Source: Alistipes sp.
GTDB lineage: Bacteria > Bacteroidota > Bacteroidia > Bacteroidales > Rikenellaceae
Assembly (NCBI GenBank): GCA_017379015.1
Contig: JAFNXN010000010.1
Location: forward strand, 24,366-88,365
Direction: 5' to 3'
Length of the DNA stretch: 64,000 nt
Made by a program: the position numbers and the translations under genes. Of this stretch, positions 37,157 to 39,051 are shown piece after piece; the first letter of the stretch is position 1, and every line of letters begins with the position of its first letter. Under the pieces are notes generated by a model. The model was not told the DNA's origin. It was given only the letters and a program-made list of their open reading frames with translations, and made no database searches.

Positions 37157-38230
37157 CTATTTAAGCATGTTGTAGTGGCAGTACATAAGACGCTCCTCAT
37201 CATCGCGGAGGTGCATGCCGCCGCCCTCGCAAAACTCCCACACCTTACATTCGGCACACTCGTCGCGGTGTGCCCACTCGCGATTGCGGAACTTCTCGAA
37301 GCGGTTTTGCCATACATCCCAGAAGCTATCCTTGTAGATGTTACCCTGCGTGAAGTTGCCACGCACGCTGGTGCATCCCGAGATGTCGCCATTGACGCGT
37401 ATCGATGCTACGTTGACACCCGCGGCACACATGTAGAAGTGGTCGCGCACCTCGCTCTCGTAGCCTCCAAGGAAGCCCTCGCAGGCGTAGTTGAGCTTGA
37501 TGCGTCCCTCGCGGCGTGTGAGTCGTATAAACTCCATAACCTTGCGGAACTGCTCCGTAGAGAGGTGTAGCGTGTCGTCGCGCTTAGCGCGTCCGGCGGG
37601 GAAGATTGAGAATATGCGCCACGACTTTATGCCCTCGGCTATGAGTAGCTCCTTCCACTCCTCGAGGCGGTCGACCATCTCGGGAGTTACACATGTTATC
37701 GCGTCGTAGGCAATACCACTCTTGCTTATGAGGCGCAGTGCTGCGAGCGCACGATCGTAGCTTAGTGCGTTTTGGCGTATGTTGTTGTGTATCTCCTTGA
37801 AGCCGTCAAAGCTCACTGACACTGAGCTTAACCCAGCATCGATGAGCGCATTAAAGCGTGCGGGGGTGAGAGCCATGCCATTTGTTACCATTCCCCACCT
37901 ATATCCGCGGCGCGACACCTCGCGACCAGCCTCCTCAAGGTCGCGGCGCATAAGAACCTCGCCACCCGAGAAGATGATGAGTACGTCGCGTGGGTTGACA
38001 TTAGGTGTTATCTCATTGTCGAGTACGCTGAGGAAGTCCTCGAGTGGCATGTCCTGCTCGGCTACATCGGTGCGGCAGTCGCTACCACAGTGACGACAGC
38101 TCAGATTACAACGAAGCGTACACTCGAAGAAGAGTGTACGCAACGCATGACGCTCGACGACCTGCTCTCTGATGCCCTTGAATAGTTTGAGCCCTAGATG
38201 TTTACGCAGTCCTAATCGTTTGCCTTTCAC
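37157..38230 (-). CDS. Radical SAM/SPASM enzyme of the rSAM/lipoprotein system
   Basis: A 357-aa radical SAM protein. The 4Fe-4S site is CNLSCRHC (Cys41, Cys45, Cys48). IIFSGGEVLMR is the GGE SAM-binding motif. The C-terminus has a SPASM domain with cysteines in YMCAAG, SGCTS, ECAECKVWEFC and MYCHY, able to hold auxiliary clusters. From memory it fits NCBIfam TIGR04133 (rSAM partnered with a lipoprotein). SPASM enzymes usually modify ribosomal peptides or proteins. The only plausible partner, a 134-aa lipoprotein, is 39 bases upstream in the same transcript. The chemistry is unknown: a Cys-, Asp- or Phe-directed crosslink or epimerisation are all conceivable. Confidence 0.88.
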   Translation of the reverse strand: MKGKRLGLRKHLGLKLFKGIREQVVERHALRTLFFECTLRCNLSCRHCGSDCRTDVAEQDMPLEDFLSVLDNEITPNVNPRDVLIIFSGGEVLMRRDLEEAGREVSRRGYRWGMVTNGMALTPARFNALIDAGLSSVSVSFDGFKEIHNNIRQNALSYDRALAALRLISKSGIAYDAITCVTPEMVDRLEEWKELLIAEGIKSWRIFSIFPAGRAKRDDTLHLSTEQFRKVMEFIRLTRREGRIKLNYACEGFLGGYESEVRDHFYMCAAGVNVASIRVNGDISGCTSVRGNFTQGNIYKDSFWDVWQNRFEKFRNREWAHRDECAECKVWEFCEGGGMHLRDDEERLMYCHYNMLK

Positions 38231-38269
38231 TGTATGTGATTATTTTCTTTTGCTAGTTTGTTAGCTATT

Positions 38270-38674
38270 CTACTGGTTCTCCTGAGCTGCCTGCTGAGCT
38301 GCCTCCTCATTGCCCTGCTTGAGCTCCTCGATGAGCTTCTTAGCCTCCTCCTCAGAGATAGGCTTTACAATGCTGCCATCCTCAAAAGGTACACCCTCAT
38401 TCTCGGCTGCCGAAGCCTCCTGCTCAGCACCCTTCTCCGCCTCACGCTTGAGTGCCTCGATCTCCTCTTTTGCCTGCTCTGGGTCGATAGGACGAGCTAC
38501 CTCGCCATCAGGAAATGGCACGCCATACATAAGCATGATGCGTGGGTCATCAATTTCGCTCTCGATATTATTTGGTTCTGAGGTCTCTGCCTTCGATGCC
38601 TTCTTAGTTGTGCAACAGCCTGCTGTTGAGAATCCGAGCAACGTAAGAAGTGCCACTTTCCACTTGATATTCAT
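38270..38674 (-). CDS. Small lipoprotein, probable substrate of the radical SAM enzyme
   Basis: A 134-aa lipoprotein with lipobox STAGC (Cys20). Two tandem repeats of 43-residue period follow: MYGVPFPDGEVARPIDPEQA (from 49) and EGVPFEDGSIVKPISEEEA (from 93). Each ends in a charged helix (EIEALKREAEKG; LIEELKQGNEE). The GVPFxDG core is invariant except one residue. The DDPRIMLMYGVP segment recalls the TIGR04134 family of rSAM-partner lipoproteins, from memory. The repeated motif is the natural candidate for modification by the downstream enzyme. It has a good promoter. Confidence 0.82.
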   Translation of the reverse strand: MNIKWKVALLTLLGFSTAGCCTTKKASKAETSEPNNIESEIDDPRIMLMYGVPFPDGEVARPIDPEQAKEEIEALKREAEKGAEQEASAAENEGVPFEDGSIVKPISEEEAKKLIEELKQGNEEAAQQAAQENQ

Positions 38675-38699: not shown

Positions 38700-38731
38700 C
38701 AAAAGTAAGAGTTTTTTTCATATTCTACAAA
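38700..38731 (-). promoter_or_regulatory. Promoter of the rSAM/lipoprotein operon
   Basis: Minus-strand TTTG (38728-38731), 20-nt spacer, TACTTTTG (38700-38707), 26 bases upstream of the lipoprotein ATG. Confidence 0.72.
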
Positions 38732-38841: not shown

Positions 38842-39051
38842 ATGGAGGGACGTGTAAAGTGGTTTGATGATAAGCGTGGCTATGGCTTTATCACTGGTAG
38901 TGATGGGGTAGATGTATATGTACACTATACCGCCATTCGGAGCGATGGCTACCGTACACTGAAGCATAATTGGCGCGTTAGCTTTGAGGTTGAGCGTGTT
39001 GATGATAAGCATACCGAGGCTCGTGATGTCTGCGTGCTTCCCCGCCTCTGA
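38842..39051 (+). CDS. Cold-shock domain protein
   Basis: A 69-aa single cold-shock domain. KWFDDKRGYGFI is RNP1-like, and DVYVHYTAI is RNP2-like with the expected aromatic residues, followed by RTLKHNWRVSFEVE. It binds single-stranded nucleic acid. VYVHY replaces the usual VFVHF. Monocistronic with a long terminator. Confidence 0.92.
   Translation: MEGRVKWFDDKRGYGFITGSDGVDVYVHYTAIRSDGYRTLKHNWRVSFEVERVDDKHTEARDVCVLPRL

Follow-up and report, generated by a model that had tools for sequence, protein, structure and literature searches.

The radical-SAM/SPASM enzymes of family TIGR04133 probably excise tyramine from an X-Y-G tag of exported lipoproteins, which would leave a ketoamide in the protein backbone. 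This chemistry is deduced from sequence; what the data establish is the gene order, the family of the enzyme, the conserved X-Y-G tag, the way this tag accompanies the enzyme from genome to genome, and a relationship to splicease-type enzymes. The lipoprotein is very probably the enzyme's substrate, and we think it highly likely that the tyrosine of its tag is altered in one way or another, be it by tyramine excision or, with much smaller probability, by a different reaction.

In the window, by which we mean the whole stretch of 64,000 nucleotides analysed here (part of a 1.71 Mb draft genome of 78% completeness), a gene for a 134-residue lipoprotein is followed on the minus strand, after a gap of 39 bp, by one for a 357-residue radical-SAM/SPASM enzyme, the arrangement that an earlier, sequence-only reading had described. 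The good promoter which that reading placed before the pair was also recovered, as an exact match (38731-38700) to TTTG-N19..21-TANNTTTG, presumably the Bacteroidales promoter pattern, 25 bp upstream of the lipoprotein start codon; exact matches to this pattern number seven in the window against 0.46 expected. The relevant features are:

38700..38731, minus strand: promoter-like site TTTG-20-TANNTTTG, an exact match to the Bacteroidales pattern
38270..38674, minus strand: lipoprotein gene, 134 aa, proposed substrate (open reading frame and co-occurrence with the enzyme)
38630..38638, minus strand: signal-peptide motif Leu-Gly-Phe (residues 13-15), a candidate for the leader element (LGF counts; Leu13 and Gly14 invariant in 30 aligned proteins)
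38615..38617, minus strand: lipobox cysteine, residue 20, invariant in 30 aligned proteins
38522..38530, minus strand: Met49-Tyr50-Gly51, the X-Y-G tag and proposed splicing site (locus survey; splicease motif published in PMC10533398)
38396..38524, minus strand: repeat 1, residues 51-93, GVPFPDG and a charged stretch (self-alignment)
38273..38395, minus strand: repeat 2, residues 94-134, GVPFEDG and a charged stretch, without Tyr (self-alignment)
37157..38230, minus strand: TIGR04133 radical-SAM/SPASM enzyme, 357 aa, GTG start (TIGR04133 profile; Pfam Radical_SAM and SPASM)
38087..38110, minus strand: C41-X3-C45-X2-C48, radical-SAM site, with G49-S50 just after it common to splicease-type enzymes
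37178..37429, minus strand: SPASM region, residues 268-351, with six of the seven usual cysteines and Gly at position 338

Divergent from the lipoprotein promoter lies a small plus-strand ORF (38842-39051) that by eye is cold-shock protein-like.

The window enzyme scores 550.2 bits against TIGR04133 (curated cut-off 425), with 349 of 350 positions covered, so that the enzyme half of the TIGR04133/TIGR04134 pairing named in the sequence-only reading held; the lipoprotein half did not, TIGR04134 (cut-off 39.8 bits) giving no match to the window lipoprotein even at E-values up to 1. The CX3CX2C triad (C41/C45/C48), described as intact, is invariant at 83/83 unique loci, the window included. The auxiliary cysteines had been called intact as well, and here the description fails at one position: C268, C286, C325, C328, C334 and C351 are present, and residue 338, the last Cys of what we take to be the expected SPASM pattern CX2CX5CX3C, is Gly in 80 of the 83 loci. 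Both the CX3CX2C motif and the SPASM domain that are looked for in a splicease are thus found in the window enzyme, albeit with six of seven SPASM cysteines, and C52, C180 and C250 are additional invariant cysteines of TIGR04133 enzymes. After TIGR04133 the top named family is TIGR03913 (122.9 bits). The heme enzymes AhbD and NirJ2 (120.8 bits each) both score above TIGR04103, presumably the PlpX family (IPR026482), for which the window enzyme, at 97.6 bits, falls far short of the cut-off of 725; profile scores for the mycofactocin and ranthipeptide maturases are 94 and 64 bits. The nearest enzymes in named records come from Alistipes MAGs of ruminant guts (75-86% identity in the first twelve matches), and no splicease by name appears among the solved structures matched by the window enzyme (12) or by a TIGR04103 enzyme from Nostoc (4).

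The lipoprotein itself has no NCBIfam or Pfam family above cut-off; matches to CHIPS, Hydant_A_N and other families were dismissed as below cut-off. By eye it is of low complexity, and we treat it as a short type separate from TIGR04134. Window-type lipoproteins were sought with a profile from an alignment (A1) of the window protein with 29 of 38 MYG lipoproteins chosen by regular expression. Across 120 sampled genomes of the family, TIGR04133 occurs in 55 (E up to 1e-100), and in a wider Bacteroidota sample in 2/296, one being the window's own. TIGR04134 occurs in 41 of the 120, 39 of them TIGR04133-positive on comparison of the lists by eye, the two exceptions (G058 and G088) being 84% and 85% complete. 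Window-type lipoproteins occur in 27, all TIGR04133-positive, and 26 of the 27 matches adjoin the enzyme; many of these matches arise by construction, since A1 rows came from the searched genomes, and the informative part is the count of zero among TIGR04133-negative genomes. In one genome the window-type lipoprotein (G099:C3:23002-23292) and the TIGR04133 enzyme are on different contigs, and this lipoprotein is perhaps a substrate in trans.

Taken together, a partner lipoprotein of either type is detected by profile in 54/55 TIGR04133-positive and 2/65 negative genomes (counted by eye; Fisher 1.5e-30, indicative only, as the genomes are related and some supplied A1 rows), which supports the earlier proposal that the lipoprotein is the enzyme's substrate. 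The one TIGR04133-positive genome without a profile match, G085, does carry a partner, with two MYG tags (L134). The comparable scores of heme-pathway enzymes might be taken to mean that the enzyme has lost its action on peptides and is tied to the lipoprotein by gene neighbourhood alone; we hold this highly improbable, given that two kinds of lipoprotein track the enzyme through the 120 genomes and that YG lipoproteins adjoin it in Treponema, Parabacteroides and Phocaeicola.

The genome from which the window is drawn has a second TIGR04133 enzyme (575 bits) on contig C3, downstream of three lipoproteins with TIGR04134 matches, of which two exceed the cut-off; it is on this contig that the genome's detected TIGR04134 proteins lie.

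L006:5528-10466 (contig C3 of the window genome, G000): second TIGR04133 operon, with three TIGR04134-type lipoproteins, an LRR protein, a 177-aa protein, an extra radical-SAM/SPASM enzyme and TIGR04133

The extra enzyme is above cut-off for the general SPASM-domain model only, and locus L034 has a like operon end (lipoprotein, extra radical-SAM enzyme, TIGR04133). Nif11/NHLP leader families were found neither in the window lipoprotein nor in five other proteins of the second operon.

The tag emerges from a survey of 85 TIGR04133 loci, 83 of them unique, comprising 60 places in the 120 family genomes besides the window genome's two, 20 from named genome contigs, three plasmid records and the window genome's two. 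At 81 of the 83 unique loci a lipoprotein of the operon has YG in its mature part: at 77 it follows the lipid cysteine in a lipoprotein-like ORF within 700 bp of the enzyme, at L006 and L112 the YG lipoproteins lie further upstream within the operon, and L137 and L138 have CYG lipoproteins that the ORF filter missed. The two loci without it are L131, which reads CYA, and L133, which begins at a contig end. One more locus, the 84th, belongs to a different class of Bacteroidota; its partner (L148:1008-1481) carries LGF and EYGVREP without a lipobox cysteine. YG is present in 91 of 103 lipoprotein-like ORFs near the enzyme, against a mean of 28.6 and a maximum of 39 when the mature parts were shuffled (500 rounds), and lies within 60 residues of the Cys in 88/103, against 14/159 control lipoprotein-like ORFs that are far from the enzyme or on the opposite strand. 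For YG-x-P/R the counts are 73/103 and 7/159, a contrast biased against the tag reading because six of those seven controls come from the very same operons. Of the 12 near ORFs that lack YG, most appear spurious on inspection by eye; L107, L131 and L135 have real-looking lipoproteins without it, L107 and L135 alongside another partner with YG.

The first YG is preceded by Met in 51, Cys in 15 and Glu in 11 of the 91 ORFs; positions +2 and +3 from the Tyr are variable, +2 being most often Val (47) or Thr (19), and the distance from tag to Cys varies from 1 to over 50 residues. More than one YG occurs in 14 ORFs, not all being tags; L095, L109 and L136 have two tags, one on each side of a long middle, and the partner at L134 (G085) has two MYG tags.

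The two 43-residue repeats reported for the window lipoprotein are real: GVPF recurs at residues 51 and 94 with a period of 43, 19/41 ungapped positions are identical, and the best 20-mer self-match is 11, against no more than 8 in 100 shuffles. Their GVPFxDG core had been put forward as the modification site, and its presence in both repeats speaks for that; the conservation check spoke against it. GVPFxDG is found in 12/83 TIGR04133 loci, was rejected as an element common to them, and, being absent from most enzyme loci, was rejected as the site too. It is X-Y-G that goes with the enzyme, and the window repeat overlaps this tag in its first unit only. Among 17 window-type lipoproteins that first unit reads MYGVP[FMS]P[DEN]G, and the 19 later units caught by pattern in these proteins drift to EFPDG, ALFPDG and KSPEG, with Tyr in 0/19. 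Modification of the GVPFxDG repeats therefore seems to us hardly credible.

LGF occurs in the signal peptide of 71/103 neighbouring lipoprotein-like ORFs and 3/159 controls, and TIGR04134-type partners share YG and mostly LGF. In A1 the conserved parts of the short partners are the signal peptide and MYG only, where the columns M, Y and G are invariant because the rows were chosen for MYG; the unbiased counts are those of the locus survey. LGF and YG may have been kept in part by descent, the short and TIGR04134-type partners perhaps having an ancestral N-terminus in common, and the conserved LGF has a plain alternative explanation in a shared origin of the partners. The tag might also serve for docking only, the enzyme altering another part of the lipoprotein or a third molecule. 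The regions beside YG, which differ greatly between partners and in some contain a carboxypeptidase-regulatory-like domain, fit such a role, as does the conservation of LGF in the signal peptide. We regard docking alone as improbable, however, because no other element common to the partner classes was seen, the short partners (rows chosen for MYG) keeping signal peptide and MYG only, and because some partners have two widely separated tags.

Kinship with splicease-type enzymes bears on what happens at the tag. Outside TIGR04133, the closest BLAST matches are enzymes of splicease type, namely L061 (152 bits), GDL enzymes (134, 133 and 106), TIGR04103-like enzymes (120-129) and one from Agathobacter (126); TIGR04347, which is not a splicease family, comes among them with 108, more than the Nostoc TIGR04103 protein with 101 or Tropicibacter with 88, and MftC and PqqE reach 80 and 48 bits. 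A 36-row tree groups 16 TIGR04133 and 11 splicease-type rows against nine others (99/97), and a 42-row tree groups 16 and 11 such rows against 15 other SPASM rows (99/96), with MftC, PqqE and NirJ outside; the branch leading to TIGR04133 is long (1.7-2.1). Seven residues, L39, G49, S50, W204, G252, E258 and S288, are common to TIGR04133 and the splicease-type enzymes and occur in at most one of the nine others. When two remote anSME rows were added, the tree placed both within the group (29 rows, 91/98) with a branch length of 4.9, a result that we read as long-branch attraction; the clade is still sensitive to remote rows and depends on their omission. The sequences thus argue that TIGR04133 and the splicease-type enzymes are kin of common ancestry (99/96), a grouping that the anSME rows disturb. 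The trees hold 16 of the 83 TIGR04133 enzymes, 11 of these rows being BLAST-matched stretches rather than full proteins; the Nostoc TIGR04103 protein stands in for PlpX, and triceptide and ranthipeptide maturases have no rows. L077 was omitted from the anSME and 42-row trees and the second radical-SAM enzyme of L006 from all trees; in the outgroup search in Bacteroidota NirJ was found in 0/198 and AhbD in 1/148 genomes, and the NirJ rows were taken from plasmids.

Peptides with X-Y-G/A/M adjoin 7/11 splicease-type enzymes. The Nostoc TIGR04103 enzyme (853 bits) is flanked on one side by a Nif11 peptide that ends in ALYGLPPELF and on the other by a 71-aa gene that resembles PlpY by size and position only, and upstream of the L059 enzyme is a protein ending LLYGTPPVPLYQAPSK. 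GDL enzymes adjoin DUF1843 peptides with MLYGG, KPYGV, PMYMA, VLYAA, PMYAA and QPYGA, and those of L057 have VLYGV and MPYGV.

L067:4028-6425, L068:4171-6374 and L057:828-2862: TIGR03913 (GDL) type enzymes with DUF1843-type peptides, Tyr then Gly, Ala or Met

These GDL enzymes may be spliceases with a looser site. No small YG peptide was seen within the flanks examined at L058, L060, L062 and L074 (4/11). Three further loci were observed in passing. Directly behind the splicease-type enzyme of L061, whose genome belongs to the same order, is a protein (L061:2955-3596) with six KYGYP copies, five of them then followed by Cys. On an Agathobacter rectalis plasmid an unannotated 35-aa ORF ending PVMYGTGVRM (L069:4809-4913) precedes a splicease-type enzyme and an MFS transporter, and on a Tropicibacter plasmid (L074:1-6365) a splicease-type enzyme is accompanied by a second radical-SAM gene, a phosphotransferase, a trypsin-like peptidase and an M23 peptidase.

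SPASM reactions are diverse, and the Tyr of X-Y-G could be the target of another one, either a ring cyclophane or ether cross-link to a neighbour, such as joins the Tyr ring to a nearby residue in triceptides, or some other Tyr oxidation, with loss of hydrogens only. The conserved Tyr would suit this, the commonest +2 residues (Val 47, Thr 19 of 91) offer a beta carbon through which a Y-G-x bridge could form, and the profile scores for the mycofactocin and ranthipeptide maturases point the same way. Against it, the tree places TIGR04133 with the splicease-type enzymes and away from MftC, PqqE and NirJ (triceptide and ranthipeptide maturases being without rows), the GDL group has Tyr then G, A or M, and the Met before Tyr and Gly at +1, which PlpXY uses according to PMC10533398, are favoured whilst +2 and +3 vary. 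We consider such a reaction unlikely.

Tyramine excision, the reading we prefer, would proceed as follows. The promoter and the 39-bp gap suggest that the lipoprotein and enzyme genes are co-transcribed. Radical-SAM enzymes act in the cytoplasm, so that the signal peptide would still be present and may be the enzyme's handle; before export, the TIGR04133 enzyme would recognise the precursor, probably via its unusual signal peptide, in which Leu-Gly-Phe would replace a RiPP leader. Tyr50 would be attacked and tyramine removed from X-Y-G, leaving a ketoamide in the backbone, and the protein would then be exported and lipidated on Cys20, which from the lipobox position would put the ketoamide about 29 residues from the membrane anchor. 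Speculatively, the ketoamide, to which spliceotides owe their inhibition of proteases, could bind nucleophiles at the cell envelope, proteases among them. With somewhat more doubt than confidence we propose that TIGR04133 is a splicease for exported proteins that works without a RiPP leader, the role of leader being taken on by a type II signal peptide with conserved Leu-Gly-Phe, and whose product is a lipid-anchored backbone-ketoamide protein, a membrane-tethered protease trap of gut Bacteroidales.

A pairing of TIGR04133 and lipoproteins for which we found no assigned function thus acquires a prediction that can be checked by mass, namely a loss of 135.068 Da at Met-Tyr-Gly: the tryptic peptide IMLMYGVPFPDGEVARPIDPEQAK computes to 2672.3342 unmodified and 2537.2658 with tyramine excised. 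The splicing loss is printed as 135.0757 in PMC10533398, and the mass of C8H9NO computes to 135.0684. If the reading is true, gut bacteria would have membrane proteins with backbone ketoamides and no RiPP leader, signal peptides would act as enzyme recognition elements, and in Cys-Tyr-Gly partners (15/91) the lipidated cysteine itself would become an alpha-keto-beta-amino acid. Spliceotides inhibit proteases, according to PMC11117315 and PMC10373908, so the products would then point to a new kind of envelope protease defence.

NCBIfam calls the two families 'TIGR04133 family radical SAM/SPASM protein' and 'radical SAM-associated putative lipoprotein' (TIGR04134). The literature that was searched gave no publication naming either family or under these name wordings, none that combines radical SAM with lipoprotein, SPASM and Bacteroidales, and, among the matches listed for splicease/ketoamide/lipoprotein and radical SAM/lipoprotein/RiPP/Alistipes, none on the pairing by title. 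The main splicease survey is reportedly Scott 2022, on ribosomal beta-amino-acid peptides and proteins by its title, and the TIGR04133 family may already be covered there.

Compared with known systems, TIGR04133 resembles the TIGR03913 GDL systems in that their peptides have Tyr then G, A or M, and differs from them in that theirs are tandem 56-64 aa peptides without a signal peptide (by eye), served by enzymes of 474-516 aa with a C-terminal extension. MftC, presumably directed to a C-terminal Val-Tyr, differs in target position and lies outside the clade; it is a SPASM enzyme working on Tyr of a ribosomal peptide, as described in PMC8326336. PlpX belongs to IPR026482 and is active when co-expressed with PlpY, according to a review (PMC11002830). 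No PlpY-like gene was seen on the downstream side of the 83 TIGR04133 loci; at 11 of them the longest ATG ORF that begins on the same strand no more than 150 bp downstream encodes 45-130 aa, these ORFs being mutually unlike by eye and one of them a YG lipoprotein. TIGR04133 substrates are exported lipoproteins with a signal peptide, in contrast to the Nif11/NHLP leader peptides of the PlpX/PlpY system, and the Gly in place of the seventh SPASM Cys is a departure from PlpX. For these three reasons, no downstream PlpY, no Nif11/NHLP leader and one SPASM cysteine replaced, we do not class TIGR04133 in the PlpX family. The likeness to PlpX/PlpY consists in a SPASM radical-SAM enzyme with an X-Y-G substrate tag, the splicease-type enzymes being the nearest group in the tree. 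X-Y-G is the published splicease site, with M-Y-G and L-Y-G as natural forms, according to PMC10533398, where PlpXY tags placed in FtsZ read GGPIRP[L or G]YGLPI and GAVAAGYGVVFPG and were spliced in 2 of the 16 insertions tried, so that YG alone would be insufficient for PlpXY. The second of these tags, ending GYGVVFPG, is there an engineered M-to-G form, from which we infer that the natural version should read MYGVVFPG, and the MYGVPFPDG of the window lipoprotein is close to it.
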